Shown: positions 3,421 through 26,388 of the stretch, one piece after another | Position numbering within the stretch: position 1 is the stretch's first letter | How the letters are laid out: every line of letters starts with the position of its first letter | Origin: a virus | IMG/VR virus record: IMGVR_UViG_3300015371_000146 | Location: 1 to 26,388 of that record | DNA length: 26,388 bases | Strand: one strand, 5' to 3' | Translations under genes and position numbers: made by a program | Notes under the pieces: generated by a model | What the model saw: only the letters and a program-made list of their open reading frames with translations | Databases searched by the model: none | What the model was told of the DNA's origin: nothing

Positions 3421-3684
3421 ATGGCAAAGGACAAGGGCCAGGAAGAGCAGCAGCGCGAAGATCAGCAGCGCCAGGAAGAGCAGCGCCGTCGCGAAGAGCA
3501 GGAGCGTCAGCAGCGCGCTAATCAGCCCGGCCAGTCTGAGAACGTGCAGACGGAGTGGGCCGACCCGAGCAAGCGGCCAGACATCCCGCGCGAGGGCGAA
3601 CGACCCGACGTCCCTCGAGAAGGCCAGGACAAGGGCGAGGTCGGGTACTCCGACTTCTCCCCGGGATCCAACCCGAAGCAGTAG
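3421..3684 (+). CDS. Highly charged coiled-coil-like protein, isolated plus-strand gene
   Basis: 87 residues. The ATG is preceded by GGAGG with a five-base spacer, a strong site that fixes the start. Residues 1-35 are almost entirely Gln, Glu, Arg, Lys and Asp and would form a single charged helix or coiled coil. Residues about 50-70 hold a near repeat, R-P-D-I-P-R-E-G-E then R-P-D-V-P-R-E-G-Q. It is the only rightward gene between 1646 and the right end, flanked by an inverted repeat before and a terminator after, like an independently expressed cassette. Function unknown. Confidence 0.75.
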   Translation: MAKDKGQEEQQREDQQRQEEQRRREEQERQQRANQPGQSENVQTEWADPSKRPDIPREGERPDVPREGQDKGEVGYSDFSPGSNPKQ

Positions 3685-3696
3685 TCGCGGAACGCG

Positions 3697-3730
3697 AAAA
3701 GGGCCGGCACCCGAAGGTGCCGGCCCTTTT
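3697..3730. terminator. Perfect bidirectional intrinsic terminator
   Basis: A 15-bp perfect stem (AAAAGGGCCGGCACC with its complement) around a CGAA loop, ending in four T residues on both strands. It separates the rightward gene ending at 3684 from the leftward gene whose stop is at 3742, so it can stop both transcripts. This is the strongest terminator in the window. Confidence 0.9.
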
Positions 3731-6060: not shown

Positions 6061-6462
6061 TTAGCCGTTCCGGTACTCCAAGAGCTTGAGCGTGCGGACC
6101 ACGATGCGGTCCACGTCGCGCTTCGACCACCAGGCGCCGGCCACGCTGTGCCAGTCACCGCAGTGCCAGCACTGGACGCGGACGCGCCAGCGCCAGCGCT
6201 GCTCGGCGATGACCATCCATTGATGGTGGCACGCGTCAGGAGGCAGGATCGGAACGACCGGCGGCTCTTGCGGAACCTCGTCCGGTGTCGGGTCAGGGAT
6301 CTGAGGGCCGCCAGGAGGGATCGGCGGGGGGTTGACCCGCCGACCCGGCCGCAGGTTCGGGTCAGCAGTGCGCGGAAGTCGAACAACCCGGTTCCGACCT
6401 AGCGGAACCGGGTTGTCTACGATCTCCTTCTGGCGCCGCCGAAGTGGCGCAGGATCACTCAC
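6061..6462 (-). CDS. Pro-rich protein with C-terminal zinc-ribbon-like motif
   Basis: 133 residues from the GTG at 6462, which overlaps the upstream TGA (GTGA) and has GAGG four bases before it. Residues about 35-75 are Pro/Arg-rich and probably unstructured. The C-terminal half has A-C-H-H-Q-W then V-Q-C-W-H-C-G-D-W-H-S, a C-x2-C-x3-H cluster with several Trp, consistent with a small zinc-binding module. A perfect 14-bp inverted repeat lies inside the early coding region (6383-6416), so a shorter start downstream of it is possible. Function unknown. Confidence 0.6.
   Translation of the reverse strand: MSDPAPLRRRQKEIVDNPVPLGRNRVVRLPRTADPNLRPGRRVNPPPIPPGGPQIPDPTPDEVPQEPPVVPILPPDACHHQWMVIAEQRWRWRVRVQCWHCGDWHSVAGAWWSKRDVDRIVVRTLKLLEYRNG
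6383..6416 (-). terminator. Perfect 14-bp inverted repeat inside the 5' part of a gene
   Basis: ACAACCCGGTTCCG, loop ACCTAG, then the exact complement. On the minus strand it lies about 45-75 bases after the stop of the gene ending at 6459 and is followed by TTCGACTT. It looks like a terminator, yet lies within the reading frame of the Pro-rich zinc protein. It may be a terminator or attenuator for the upstream gene or may dictate a later start. Confidence 0.5.
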
Positions 6463-22045: not shown

Positions 22046-22245
22046 GACCGACCGCTCGCCGTCACTCGAGCGGGAGGCCGGGCGACGCCGGTCGAGACGA
22101 TCATGCCGAGCAGGGAGAGCGCGCCGAAGATCGCGATGATCAACAGCACGGCGCCGGTAAAGGGCTTATCAGCCCAGACCAGTGCCGACCCACAGATCGT
22201 CATCACCGAAACGATGACTCCGAAAGATATGACCGCCGCGTTCAT
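22042..22245 (-). CDS. Small two-helix membrane protein
   Basis: 67 residues with two hydrophobic helices (A-V-I-S-F-G-V-I-V-S-V-M-T-I-C-G and G-A-V-L-L-I-I-A-I-F-G-A-L-S-L-L-G-M-I-V) and a basic tail. No good Shine-Dalgarno sequence precedes the ATG; TAGTGT ends six bases upstream, the leaderless spacing, though it is a poor -10. A terminator lies between it and the gene upstream. Could be a holin-like or membrane-remodelling protein. Confidence 0.6.
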   Translation of the reverse strand: MNAAVISFGVIVSVMTICGSALVWADKPFTGAVLLIIAIFGALSLLGMIVSTGVARPPARVTASGRS

Positions 22246-22273
22246 GGGTCTACACTACCAGGGAAACGCACGA

Positions 22274-22300
22274 CAGCCCCCGCCTGACTGACGAGGGCTG
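22274..22300 (-). terminator. Terminator after the WGxxGxxG-like gene
   Basis: CAGCCC and GGGCTG arms plus an inner CG/CG pair form a GC-rich hairpin starting about 20 bases past the stop at 22319 on the minus strand. The arm sequence is shared with the terminator at 23311-23336. Confidence 0.6.
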
Positions 22301-22318
22301 CCGCGCGCGGATGGGTTG

Positions 22319-22660
22319 TCAGTGGCTACTAGAGCCGCGTGGAGTGGTGTCGGCCGGCGGGACGCCCACCGTCGTGTAGTCGGGCTTGCGCTTCTTCAGA
22401 CCGGCGAGACCGGCGAGGCCGAGGAGGCCGACGAGCCCGACCAGTCCCCAGAGCCCGTCGTTGTCGTCATCGTCGTCATTGTCCGTGACGTCGTTGACCT
22501 TGTCCTCGATCTTGTCCTTGTCGATCGTCGTCGTCGTGGTCGTCGACTGAGCGCCTATCGGTGAGGCCAGGATCACGCTAGTCGGCAGCACCATGACCAC
22601 GGCTACGAGCGCTACGACGAGCGACTTACGTACGGCGCGTCTTGGCTTCCGCGTCGACAT
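22319..22660 (-). CDS. Secreted protein with WGxxGxxG-like C-terminal membrane anchor
   Basis: 113 residues; GAGG lies six bases before the ATG, inside the end of the PRC-barrel gene. Basic N-terminus (R-K-P-R-R-A-V-R-K-S), hydrophobic signal core (L-V-V-A-L-V-A-V-V-M-V-L) and A-Q-S cleavage-like site near 37-39. Then Thr-rich and Asp-rich stretches, and W-G-L-V-G-L-V-G-L-L-G-L-A-G-L followed by K-K-R-K, resembling WGxxGxxG/CTERM sorting anchors. Likely exported and kept at the host envelope. Confidence 0.65.
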   Translation of the reverse strand: MSTRKPRRAVRKSLVVALVAVVMVLPTSVILASPIGAQSTTTTTTIDKDKIEDKVNDVTDNDDDDDNDGLWGLVGLVGLLGLAGLAGLKKRKPDYTTVGVPPADTTPRGSSSH

Positions 22661-23264
22661 CGGCTACCTCCACATGCTCTTCTGTCTCGGTCACCGGGAC
22701 CTGCACGGTGCGAGTCTCGGTGCGCTGCTTCTGCGTCTGGTAGCGCCGAAGCCGAACGGTCGCCTCGATCGGAACGGTCGCCTCGACCGGAACCTCCTGA
22801 GTCGTCGCGGTCGCACGCTCGGTGTTCTCGCGCCACTCGTTGCTGTCGCGGTCCCAGCGGTGACGCTGGTACCCCGTGTCGGGGCGACTGACCGTGGCGT
22901 AGTTCTTACCATACGACGCCTCGGCCGTCCGCTCGCCATGCATGAAGCCGTAGTGAGCGTAGAGCTCTCGCTCCTCGTCCTGCGTGAGATAGCCGTCCGT
23001 GTCGAAGTCCGGAGCCTCCTTGATCCGATCCTTCGTGGTGGGCAGTCGCATCACCATGTCGCCGTCGTCGCGCCGCTCAAAGGTCGCGCCGGCGATGGGA
23101 GCGATCGACTGACGACCGAGCAGACCGGTCTTGACGGTCACCCACTCAGGCCGACCCGTCACGTCGTCGTAGAGCACGTCCTTGATGGTACCGATCTTGT
23201 CGCCGTTGGAGTCAATCGCGACGCGGTCGATCCACTCATCATAGCTCTGGGTCTGTTGTACCAT
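22626..23264 (-). CDS. PRC-barrel protein with DUF2382-like C-terminus, leaderless
   Basis: 212 residues from the ATG at 23264; longer versions cross the promoter. Residues 8-85 form a PRC barrel (V-A-I-D-S-N-G-D-K-I-G-T-I-K-D-V-L-Y-D). After an acidic linker the C-terminus is a T/V/E-rich repeat (V-P-V-E-A-T-V-P-I-E-A-T-V-R, E-T-R-T-V-Q-V-P-V-T-E-T) like DUF2382. This PRC-plus-DUF2382 layout is known from actinobacterial stress proteins, suggesting a host-derived gene. TATATA ends six bases before the ATG. Confidence 0.75.
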   Translation of the reverse strand: MVQQTQSYDEWIDRVAIDSNGDKIGTIKDVLYDDVTGRPEWVTVKTGLLGRQSIAPIAGATFERRDDGDMVMRLPTTKDRIKEAPDFDTDGYLTQDEERELYAHYGFMHGERTAEASYGKNYATVSRPDTGYQRHRWDRDSNEWRENTERATATTQEVPVEATVPIEATVRLRRYQTQKQRTETRTVQVPVTETEEHVEVADVDAEAKTRRT

Positions 23265-23300
23265 AAGGTGTATATACCCAATACGGTGTGAGAGTAGACG
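23265..23300 (-). promoter_or_regulatory. Leaderless promoter of the PRC-barrel gene
   Basis: TATATA at 23276-23271, six bases to ATG 23264, the same spacing as other leaderless promoters. The hexamer at 17 bp (GTCTAC) does not fit the TGG-type -35, so this member may depend on another factor. The first codons contain CAACAGACCCAGAG, a shifted start element. Confidence 0.55.
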
Positions 23301-23310
23301 AGGAATGCAC

Positions 23311-23336
23311 GACAGCCCCGCCAAAGCGGGGCTGTC
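23311..23336 (-). terminator. Perfect 11-bp terminator hairpin
   Basis: GACAGCCCCGC, loop CAAA, then the exact complement. It lies about 80 bases after the stop of the lipoprotein gene at 23416 and before the PRC-barrel promoter. Only short pyrimidine runs follow. Confidence 0.75.
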
Positions 23337-23983: not shown

Positions 23984-24008
23984 AGCCCCGACCCGAAGGG
24001 CCGAGGCT
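23984..24008 (-). terminator. Hairpin terminator before the lipoprotein leader
   Basis: A stem of about 11 pairs (two G-U type) with a UUC loop, starting 19 bases after the stop at 24027 on the minus strand and followed by TTGTTGTGG. The lipoprotein's start element comes right after it, with no recognisable -10 between. Confidence 0.65.
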
Positions 24009-24026
24009 GTGGCGGGACGAGCGGGG

Positions 24027-24275
24027 TCAGGCGACGGCGGCCTTGACCGCGGCGACGTCTGCGGCCGAGATGACCCCGTGCGACCAAGCCGAGATGGCGA
24101 CAGAGACGGGGTCCTCATGACGGCGGGAGGTGTAGTACAGGAGCCGACCGACGCGACTGAGCGCGAGAGCGTGAGGTGCGCGGCCACGCCCGAGCTGGAG
24201 CCTTGGCCAAGTAGCGGGTTCTGCGTTGATGAGCGAGGTGCCGAGGTCGAGGTCTGGAGTCTGCGTCTGGGTCAC
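24027..24275 (-). CDS. Small hypothetical protein, leaderless GTG start
   Basis: 82 residues from the GTG at 24275. The N-terminus M-T-Q-T-Q-T-P is the coding start element in its cleanest form. L-G-R-G-R-A-P-H-A-L-A-L-S-R-V-G-R-L-L-Y-Y-T is basic and probably helical, and the last 25 residues form an Ala/Val-rich helix. TATAGT ends six bases before the GTG. Function unknown. Confidence 0.65.
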   Translation of the reverse strand: MTQTQTPDLDLGTSLINAEPATWPRLQLGRGRAPHALALSRVGRLLYYTSRRHEDPVSVAISAWSHGVISAADVAAVKAAVA

Positions 24276-24331
24276 GAGAACACTATACACTGACGAGTAC
24301 TTCTCGTCCAGCAGTTCGCCGAGATTCTCAG
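24276..24331 (-). promoter_or_regulatory. Leaderless promoter nearly identical to that at 20047-20096
   Basis: TGGACG at 24310-24305, 17-bp spacer, TATAGT at 24287-24282, six bases to GTG 24275. The upstream GCGAANTGC and GAGAA blocks match those of the promoter at 20047-20096 almost base for base. The spacer has a one-mismatch dyad (ATACAC-TGAC-GAGTAC). The upstream element overlaps the stop of the LuxR-type gene. Confidence 0.75.
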
Positions 24332-24633
24332 TCGAGCTGCCATCCGGCCTGGTAGGCACGTGCGACGGCCGCTAGCTGGGAGCTGACGCCCAGCTTCTTG
24401 AGGATGCCTCGGATCTGCGTGCGAACCGTCGAGGTGCTGACGAAGTGCTTGGCCGCGATCTCGTCAGCGCTCAGGCCCTCCATCATCTCGACCAGCACCG
24501 CCGCCTCCCGACAGCTCAGCTGCGCGAAGGGCGCGAGCCTGGCGCGGCGGGCCGCCGCCTCACGAGTGGCGGCCATCGCCTCGGCCTGAGCGTTCGTCAC
24601 GTCGGTCGCGGCGTAGCTAGTCATCGCAGTCAT
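24328..24633 (-). CDS. LuxR-type helix-turn-helix regulator
   Basis: 101 residues; GGAG lies six bases before the ATG at 24633. The C-terminal 60 residues are a LuxR/GerE HTH: L-S-C-R-E-A-A-V-L-V-E-M-M-E-G-L-S-A-D-E-I-A, then V-S-T-S-T-V-R-T-Q-I-R-G-I-L-K-K-L-G-V. No receiver or ligand domain is present, only about 38 Ala-rich residues, so it is a stand-alone DNA-binding protein. It is a candidate binder of the dyads found at the phage promoters, which is inference. Confidence 0.85.
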   Translation of the reverse strand: MTAMTSYAATDVTNAQAEAMAATREAAARRARLAPFAQLSCREAAVLVEMMEGLSADEIAAKHFVSTSTVRTQIRGILKKLGVSSQLAAVARAYQAGWQLD

Positions 24634-24724
24634 CGCACACTCCGATCGCGGCCTGGCCCCACCAGCGCAGCACCCGCACCGACTTGAACTTCTTGCAGAG
24701 CTCGCACCAACCTATGACTCTCAT
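24617..24724 (-). CDS. 35-residue zinc-ribbon-like protein
   Basis: A short frame from ATG 24724, sharing a base with the upstream TGA (TGATG), to TAG at 24617. It encodes W-C-E-L-C-K-K-F-K at the start and V-C-D-D-C-D-D at the end, two C-x2-C knuckles 19 residues apart, with a basic Trp-rich centre. It overlaps the LuxR-type gene start by 17 bases. The paired Cys motifs and coupled start support a real gene. Confidence 0.6.
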   Translation of the reverse strand: MRVIGWCELCKKFKSVRVLRWWGQAAIGVCDDCDD

Positions 24725-25047
24725 CAGAGTCTCGACGGGCGTCGACCGGAGCCGCCAATCCGTCGATTCGCTTCCTGCCGCTCGAGCGGCGTGAAGAGAT
24801 CACGAAATTGGGGCTGAACTATCAGATTCTCGATGCAGAGGTCGAGTCGTCCCGCCAGCGCGAGCTGCGTGAACCCAGACTGGATTCGCGTTTCACTGCC
24901 GGTCGCGACGAGCGCCTTCGCGGCTTCGACGACCCCCTTCTTATGAATCTCCAGAACGAATCTACTGGGATTGTAGTGAAGGACTCGCTTCATCTCGGCG
25001 ATCTTCTCGTCGACCGCCGCAGCGAAGAGATCTTCCGTGGTCGTCAT
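24724..25047 (-). CDS. Small helical protein
   Basis: 107 residues from the ATG at 25047, one-base overlap with the upstream stop (TGATG). Y-N-P-S-R-F-V-L-E-I-H-K-K-G-V-V-E-A-A-K-A-L then G-F-T-Q-L-A-L-A-G-R-L-D-L-C-I-E and F-R-D-L-F-T form a conserved-looking helical module that I have seen as a C-terminal part of various bacterial hypothetical proteins. Function unknown. Confidence 0.65.
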   Translation of the reverse strand: MTTTEDLFAAAVDEKIAEMKRVLHYNPSRFVLEIHKKGVVEAAKALVATGSETRIQSGFTQLALAGRLDLCIENLIVQPQFRDLFTPLERQEANRRIGGSGRRPSRL

Positions 25048-25283
25048 CACTTCACCATGGTGCGGTACAGCCAGACGAGAAACGCCACGATGCCTCCCCA
25101 GCACAGGCCGCCGAAGATGAACGCCACGAGGGCCTCGGCGGCGTCGGGCTCGGGCCTGCTGAGCGTTCCGAGCGCGCTGAGGGCGCCCATGATGACGAAC
25201 GTCCAGGCGAAGATCTTGTCGATGCCGGTCTGCCACTGCTTGGGCTGTCTGGGCTGTCGGGATGGTGGCTGCTGAATGAGCAT
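25047..25283 (-). CDS. Small two-helix membrane protein, first gene of the leftward block
   Basis: 78 residues. A Gln/Pro-rich N-terminus, then two membrane helices (I-F-A-W-T-F-V-I-M-G-A-L-S-A-L and A-F-I-F-G-G-L-C-W-G-G-I-V-A-F-L-V-W-L) and a short basic end. AGGA lies eight bases before the ATG in CAGACCCAGACAGGAAG. Two helices with short loops fit a holin-like shape, but the endolysin is over 20 kb away and on a separate operon. Confidence 0.65.
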   Translation of the reverse strand: MLIQQPPSRQPRQPKQWQTGIDKIFAWTFVIMGALSALGTLSRPEPDAAEALVAFIFGGLCWGGIVAFLVWLYRTMVK

Positions 25284-25346
25284 GATGACTTCCTGTCTGG
25301 GTCTGTCGTACTGCGATAATTATACATCACGAAGTACATGAAGCCA
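25284..25346 (-). promoter_or_regulatory. Promoter of the first leftward operon
   Basis: TGGCTT at 25346-25341, 16-bp spacer, TATAAT at 25324-25319, a leader of about 35 bases with CAGACCCAGACAGGAAG, then ATG 25283. GTACT on each side of the -10 forms a 5-bp dyad. Confidence 0.75.
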
Positions 25347-25502
25347 GTCACGCGAGTTACAGAGCTGTTTCAGATTCGCGAGATCCAGGTGGGGGCCTGT
25401 GAGAAGCTCTAACTACGCGCGCGCGTACGCGCGCACGCGCGCGGGCCCGCGCGCGCGCAGTAGGAAAGGTATCCGCGAGTGGCCGCCAGGTGGCCGCCAG
25501 AG
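25347..25502. repeat. Gene-free stretch with alternating CG tract and perfect palindromes
   Basis: 25414-25458 is almost pure alternating C/G. It includes the palindrome TACGCGCGCGCGTA (25414-25427) and a perfect 20-bp palindrome centred on GGGCCC (25436-25455). Alternating CG favours Z-DNA, and the palindromes favour cruciforms. To the right, GTGGCCGCCAG is repeated, leading into the -35 of the plus-strand RNA promoter. No coding sequence seen. Confidence 0.7.
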
Positions 25503-25531
25503 TGGCTGCCCGATGCATCACAGAGTATAAT
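25503..25531 (+). promoter_or_regulatory. Plus-strand promoter TGGCTG-17-TATAAT
   Basis: TGGCTG (25503-25508), exactly 17 bp, TATAAT (25526-25531). It matches the TGG-type promoters of the minus-strand genes, which makes chance unlikely. The expected start, six to seven bases downstream, coincides with the first base of a hairpin. Confidence 0.7.
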
Positions 25532-25537
25532 GGAGTG

Positions 25538-25747
25538 CGAGGCGGTTCTGACGCGTGCTGGCCGCCTCGACCCCGCACCGACTTCGGTCCCGGCAACGTG
25601 CCATGGCAAGAACGGCTGACGCGACGCTCACACCGTCGCGTCGGACTTGGGATGGTCTGGTTAGTCCACGTTGCCGGGGCTGAGGTCGCGTCGCCACAAC
25701 CCTTCACAACTGCCAGCCCGATTCAAGAGCCCGCCATCGCGCGGGCT
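25538..25747 (+). ncRNA. Putative structured phage non-coding RNA
   Basis: Starting at the predicted transcript start: an 8-bp hairpin (CGAGGCGG 25538-25545 with 25562-25569); a GAC-UUCG-GUC tetraloop hairpin (25580-25589); then a long rod closed by a perfect 12-bp stem (25589-25600 with 25667-25678). Inside the rod are CCAU/AUGG and CAAG/CUUG pairings and a perfect 9-bp hairpin GACGCGACG (25618-25626 with 25634-25642) with a 7-base loop. A 7-bp hairpin (25728-25747) could end it. No open frame or Shine-Dalgarno explains the region. Family unknown; 3' end uncertain. Confidence 0.6.
25728..25747. terminator. Hairpin between the putative RNA and the convergent small frame
   Basis: AGCCCGC, loop CATCGC, GCGGGCT: a perfect 7-bp stem without a T-run. 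It could stop the plus-strand RNA and, in the other direction, lies at the stop codon (25746-25748) of the small minus-strand frame. Confidence 0.4.
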
Positions 25748-25955
25748 ACACGCGTCTCCCATTCCAGTCGACTATCCGTGTCAGCTCGCGCCAGGACAGC
25801 GCCGACCACCCCAGCCAACTCATGACCTCGCCGACGGGCCATGCCTCGTCCAGCCGCGTCTCACCCTCTCGGATCCCGACCATGCCTTTCCGGACCTGGC
25901 CGACCAGCCACGCCGCCGCTGCTCTTTCACGAGCCCGGTCCTGCCAGTCCGACAT
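25746..25955 (-). CDS. Possible small protein (69 residues)
   Basis: ATG 25955 to TAG 25746. The composition (A-R-E-R-A-A-A-A-W-L-V-G-Q-V-R-K-G, then E-G-E-T-R-L-D-E-A-W-P-V-G-E-V) looks protein-like with several Trp. The Shine-Dalgarno is weak (AGGG close to the ATG) and the surrounding sequence is repetitive and gene-poor. It may be an open frame by chance in G-rich sequence. No family recognised. Confidence 0.35.
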   Translation of the reverse strand: MSDWQDRARERAAAAWLVGQVRKGMVGIREGETRLDEAWPVGEVMSWLGWSALSWRELTRIVDWNGRRV

Positions 25956-26388
25956 GCCCTATCTCGACCTGCCCTGACGCGCCACGCTCCGGCCCCGTTC
26001 ATGCCGACTAGCCTGCTCTCGCTCGAGCCGTGTCGCGCCATCAGCGACTATCCTCGTCGCGCCAACCCTTCCCTGATCGCCTCGACGACCCTACCCGCGG
26101 CAACCGCTATCCCCGCCGAACCTACCCGACTGGTCTAGCCCCGCGCGTGCCGCTACTCGCCTCGGCCACGACGACTTGTCAGGCCTCACCGAGATCAAAC
26201 CAGCTCTGCTCGACTTGCCTCACCGTCCCTCATCAGGCCGCGCCGTGATCCTGTCGACGGGCCTGCTCCACTCATGCCCAACCAGGCCGACTAGTCAGGC
26301 CCTGCGCAACCCCGTCCATGTCGACCAGCCCACCCATTCCACGTCGAACCTGACCGATCCGACCGACTCATCCGGCCAGCCCACCTCT
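25956..26388. repeat. C-rich, gene-free sequence with degenerate short repeats
   Basis: No convincing gene is seen. The plus strand is strongly C-over-G. Words recur with variation: GACTAGTCAGGCC (26289-26301), GACTTGTCAGGCC (26173-26185) and CATCAGGCC near 26231; GACCAGCCCACC, GGCCAGCCCACC and GACCAGCCACGCC; CGACTATCC near 25769 and 26045. The stretch may be an origin-proximal, packaging or repeat region. A minus-strand frame open from the right edge to 26295 could be the end of another gene. Confidence 0.5.

Follow-up and report, generated by a model that had tools for sequence, protein, structure and literature searches.

A candidate structured phage RNA with its own promoter, adjoining a C-rich pentamer array, in a tailed-phage genome fragment

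Introduction

Structured RNAs encoded by phages include the HK022 put RNA, the phi29 pRNA and GOLLD, some of which have promoters of their own. In actinophages, phage promoters have already been shown to yield non-coding transcripts in abundance (PMC5712189, PMC10986025). In cluster A mycobacteriophages, Pleft yields abundant, stable non-coding transcripts that are processed to 100-500 nt and lack an evident terminator, and the corresponding locus of L5 is toxic to the host M. smegmatis (PMC5712189). Rhodococcus phage WC1 carries three highly transcribed intergenic non-coding regions, nc_1 to nc_3 (PMC10986025). Also relevant are Rho-utilisation (rut) sites, which contain more C than G and have regularly spaced C residues, every 11-13 nt over about 78 nt (PMC6407284).

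Here we describe a locus near one end of a tailed-phage fragment that shares features with both. Like the Pleft region of L5, D29 and StarStuff, it has a phage promoter, in a probable actinophage, placed to transcribe a non-coding region that lacks both a long ORF and a canonical terminator, and its predicted RNA of about 210 nt falls within the size range of the Pleft species (about 100-500 nt; PMC5712189). However, blastn detects no match to this RNA in the phage collection, D29 included, and a covariance model built from it does not match the D29 right end. Furthermore, transcription from Pleft continues into early genes of the same strand, while the element described here is oriented against the visible genes and would lead into a C-rich array. 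The highly transcribed WC1 regions are likewise intergenic and non-coding (PMC10986025), with no detectable similarity to our RNA in the phage collection. To judge from its sequence, the element resembles actinophage non-coding RNAs in kind but is an orphan in sequence.

Results and discussion

The phage fragment and its relatives

The DNA analysed (hereafter the window) is an entire IMG/VR record of 26,388 bases, an unclosed tailed-phage fragment of 26.4 kb. Portals of actinophages, among them phages of Gordonia and Microbacterium, match its portal protein at about 36%, and because of this resemblance the host is probably an actinobacterium. Its other gene products include an AAA ATPase, a Sak4-like annealing protein, an exonuclease, an endolysin and a head protein. 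Genes close to the right end point leftward. Relatives were sought by tblastn and by portal, ATPase and Sak4 scans of IMG/VR, and only three useful records were found. The first, G002 (96 kb), contains record G001 at 100% and has a 58% identical portal; G006 (96.6 kb) is more distant, and G005 spans 12 kb.

A phage-type promoter leads into the element

The initial annotation proposed that a TGGCTG-17-TATAAT promoter at 25503 drives a new structured RNA. The features upstream of this RNA are as follows.

25319-25347, minus strand: divergent phage-type promoter of the leftward genes (TATAAT at 25324-25319; spacing one base shorter)
25412-25461, no strand assigned: inverted repeat of alternating CG, lying between the divergent promoters
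25477-25510, plus strand: an 11-12-mer (GAGTGGCCGCCA) present in tandem about 2.9 times and running into the -35 element
25503-25531, plus strand: phage-type promoter TGG-N20-TATAAT (TGGCTG at 25503-25508, 17 nt, TATAAT at 25526-25531)
25538, plus strand: predicted transcription start (+/-1) from leaderless-gene calibration, identical to the first base of hairpin 1

In G002, each TATAAT preceded by TGG at a distance of exactly 20 nt sits on the structural-gene strand (n = 9). A position weight matrix was trained on these nine sites alone and then scanned across the window, where the plus-strand promoter at 25503 reached 17.9 bits. The next plus-strand site scored 7.4 bits and the best site among 30 shuffled windows 15.4 bits. 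The proposed promoter therefore matches a TGG-N20-TATAAT family that was learnt from another genome. It is the only strong plus-strand promoter of the window by this matrix, the other eight strong sites all lying on the minus strand, and the element does run against the visible genes as had been noted.

The same promoter type, common to G002 and the window, often drives leaderless mRNAs with the ATG at +1. Specifically, an ATG lies exactly 7 nt past TATAAT at six of the nine G002 sites and at two window sites, which indicates that these genes are probably expressed as leaderless mRNAs that fix the +1 position. Because eight genes share this spacing, the start site downstream of the 25503 promoter can be calibrated to 25538. 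This prediction agrees with the earlier claim that transcription begins on the opening base of hairpin 1.

The tandem 11-12-mers may serve as an operator. The CG tract at 25412-25461 is 50 bases of nearly pure CG alternation with a fold no better than shuffles (z -1.3), and might adopt Z-DNA or a cruciform.

A strongly folded, strand-specific RNA

Downstream of the predicted start, the plus strand can be divided into four parts.

25538-25569, plus strand: 5' hairpin of 10 bp (25538-25547/25560-25569) with two U.G pairs and a 12-nt loop
25579-25688, plus strand: core rod of 110 nt, comprising a 22-bp stem, internal loops and a 9-bp apical stem with a 7-nt loop
25689-25727, plus strand: mostly unpaired A/C-rich linker of 39 nt, in a fold with local hairpins forced
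25728-25747, plus strand: 3' hairpin of 7 bp (AGCCCGC/GCGGGCU), terminator-like but without a U-run

Most of the helices proposed from inspection are present, in a somewhat different arrangement. The first stem, given as 8 bp, is found as CGAGGCGG/CCGCCTCG at 25538-25545/25562-25569 and extends to 10 bp with two G.U pairs. The 9-bp stem (GACGCGACG/CGTCGCGTC) is present at 25618-25626/25634-25642, and the closing hairpin occupies 25728-25747. The complementary segments of the 12-bp stem (CCCGGCAACGTG/CACGTTGCCGGG) also exist, but they are the inner section of a longer stem, which runs unbroken for 22 bp (25579-25600/25667-25688) and includes three G.U pairs. The suggested UUCG tetraloop is not predicted, because its bases (GACUUCGGUC) lie paired inside this 22-bp stem. 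The inner CCAU/AUGG and CAAG/CUUG pairings are possible but show no clear preference, with CCAU pairing elsewhere at a probability of about 0.65. A further helix that would join the 5' and 3' ends is possible but stands hardly above chance; 28 of 500 shuffles gave one as strong, and it lies within 2.4 kcal/mol of the local-hairpin fold.

The core at 25579-25688 has a predicted folding energy of -67 kcal/mol (z -5.7 to -6.5), with none of 100 shuffles equally stable, and it is the strongest fold among 7,646 segments of 116 nt taken from both strands of this record and G001. The full segment 25538-25757 gives z -3.5. The drawn structure has 49 pairs, and five of them are G.U when read on the plus strand but A.C when read on the minus strand; no pair shows the opposite pattern. 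The MFE is -67.8 on the plus strand versus -56.4 on the minus strand. The five G.U pairs favour the plus strand as the RNA strand.

Coding potential and the 3' end

The region had been described as having no coding frame. Open frames do cross the element, including 25490-25825 (plus strand) and 25357-25707 (minus strand), yet none matches Pfam or PHROGs. An intrinsic terminator with a U-run is absent from 24000-26388. Because the 3' hairpin lacks a U-run, ordinary intrinsic termination at 25747 is probably not what ends the transcript.

The RNA lacks detectable homologues

The failure to recognise a known RNA class is borne out by the absence of any Rfam 15 match at the gathering threshold; a relaxed E-value adds three chance-level matches, each falling in the CG tract, which is not part of the RNA, and the RNA itself is without an Rfam match to set beside the HK022, phi29 or GOLLD RNAs. 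By eye and by Rfam, no feature supports a retron, tmRNA, RNase P, 6S RNA or type III antitoxin. Against phages and plasmids, blastn found no homologue (best phage match E 0.9, 27 nt within a protein gene). The element is absent from both 96-kb relatives, G002 and G006, and short matches in G006 and G005 were rejected as chance matches in coding sequence. An exact-stem pattern search of IMG/VR and GTDB genomes returned seven matches that share the searched stem alone and look like coding-region chance. A single-sequence covariance model, for which an empty result has limited weight, recovered only the window itself from 0.95 Mb and 16 further records.

Of the proposal of a new structured RNA with its own promoter, the RNA and its promoter are supported by three independent lines, namely the cross-genome promoter matrix, the start-site calibration and the fold z-score with its strand-specific G.U pairs. 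A new class in the sense of a family is not, because none of the collections and relatives searched yielded a homologue. Since neither 96-kb relative has the element, it would appear to be dispensable or recent.

A C-rich pentamer array adjoins the RNA

Directly downstream of the structured RNA lies a second feature, which the initial annotation did not mention.

25728-26388, plus strand: C-rich, G-poor, unstructured, non-coding and rut-like array of (G)YCNN pentamers, which continues to the end of the record

The tract in which C exceeds G starts together with the 3' hairpin, at 25728. The longest other such tract in this record, in G002 or in G006 has about half its length. Over 25751-26388, the lag-5 identity is 0.40, versus 0.305 in dinucleotide shuffles, and none of 1,000 shuffles is as high. 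A five-state cyclic model fitted to this interval learns (G)YCNN, in which the C stands at 99%, and its likelihood exceeds that of composition by 104 log units. None of 20 dinucleotide shuffles gains more than 28 and none of 17 other pieces of the window more than 68, and nowhere else among the loci scanned does the fitted model rise above background. Predicted structure in the array is below that of shuffles (z +1.8), and its ORFs match no Pfam family and score only at chance level against PHROGs. Because one position of the unit is almost invariant while its neighbours drift, the pattern suggests constraint, as read within a single genome; a repeat-generating process could also produce it.

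Rut sites and the array are alike in being unstructured and untranslated, with more C than G and regular C spacing (PMC6407284). By the published definition (at least 78 nt, more C than G, regularly spaced C), the array contains 504 consecutive 78-nt windows with C/G above 1.5. It differs in scale, extending for at least 640 nt as opposed to about 78 nt, with its C residues 4-5 nt apart where rut sites space them by 11-13 nt (PMC6407284), and is far denser and longer than termination needs. In sequence the array resembles an extended Rho-utilisation site, at which Rho binding and termination are predicted.

Short-period arrays occur in other records. L076 (480-750 and 1260-1850) and L019 (1-480), which have related portal genes, carry G-rich arrays of the GGGCA, AAGGC and GGGTC/GGGCT types upstream of the portal gene and on its strand, and each L076 array follows a CCCCCCTAG...CTAGGGGGG hairpin. 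The fitted model does not match them, and they were rejected as arrays of the same kind. A C-rich stretch at the D29 right end has no 5-nt period and was also set aside. On the minus strand of 25728-26388, GTCG recurs about every 39 nt.

A proposed route to a stable non-coding RNA

We lean, by a little over even, towards a phage non-coding RNA of about 210 nt that starts at 25538 and is terminated by Rho within the array. The standard phage promoter at 25503 would direct rightward transcription, and the nascent RNA would fold at once into the 5' hairpin, the long rod with its 22-bp duplex, the A/C-rich linker and the 3' hairpin. The duplex is a plausible RNase III substrate and could also act as a stability element. 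On entering the (G)YCNN array of at least 640 nt, the polymerase would be expected to be halted by Rho, and if the transcript were then trimmed as far as the 3' hairpin (25728-25747), a stable product of about 210 nt would remain. Such a course would account for the missing U-run terminator. The array would, moreover, prevent the 25503 promoter from producing RNA antisense to the leftward genes.

What the sequence itself shows is the promoter family, the fold, the strand preference and the regularity of the array; transcription, Rho termination, processing and action in trans are inferred. The RNA is likely to work in trans, either through pairing or through binding of a protein from host or phage, as may be compared with the cluster A mycobacteriophage non-coding RNAs. 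We infer that the likeliest modes are base-pairing through the 39-nt linker and protein binding by the 22-bp duplex. If transcribed, this RNA would be a well-delimited, foldable addition to the abundant but poorly understood non-coding RNAs of actinophages, and the pentamer array would offer a testable handle on Rho biology in phages.

Alternative explanations

The main rival is that the structure is not a free RNA but a 5' leader for genes past the record end. The fold and the array would then control the polymerase by antitermination or attenuation, in the manner of the HK022 put RNA or a Rho-controlled leader. The structure begins at +1, a rut-like array adjoins it directly, and the record stops 640 nt further on within that array, so any genes beyond are unseen. 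All other phage-type promoters here and in G002, however, lie on the structural-gene strand, the right-end genes point leftward, and known put sites are much shorter. On balance we consider a leader unlikely.

A second explanation places the function in the DNA, with the inverted repeats, CG tract, tandem 11-mers and array forming a replication, partition or packaging site whose folding as RNA is a by-product. The crowding of so many repeat types into 1 kb fits this idea, as do the short-period G-rich arrays found upstream of the portal gene in some records with related portal genes. In contrast, DNA palindromes do not require that all five non-Watson-Crick pairs be G.U on the plus strand (chance about 1/32), a matrix-supported promoter ends exactly at the structure, and the fitted array model fails to recognise the G-rich arrays of the other records. 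We judge such a site to be rather improbable.

It is also conceivable, if very doubtful, that the structured RNA and the array form one transcript, in which a stable 5' domain carries a tail of about 130 regularly spaced YC dinucleotides that serves as an RNA decoy. It would soak up Rho, or else a different ring-shaped protein that binds RNA in steps of 5 nt. If so, the phage would disarm host transcription termination with an RNA rather than a protein.

Chance, in the form of accidental inverted repeats in a GC-rich intergenic region beside an accidental promoter match, would fit the lack of conservation and the expectation from composition of about one TATAAT per strand in 26 kb, but it is most improbable given a promoter score above all 30 shuffles, a core fold above all shuffles and the coincidence of the two to the base.

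Other features of the window

Three further observations concern the rest of the window. Very strong GC-rich hairpins at 3615-3730, 6360-6440 and 22245-22320 (minus strand) lie at the ends of genes or close to them; most lack long U-runs, and they are probably terminators of this phage. An ARAGORN call of tRNA-Val at 24532-24612 (plus strand) runs antisense within a LuxR-type HTH gene (24328-24633, minus strand) and is probably a false positive. Finally, a PRC-barrel protein encoded at 22626-23324 (minus strand) finds its only phage-collection matches in two human-gut phage records.
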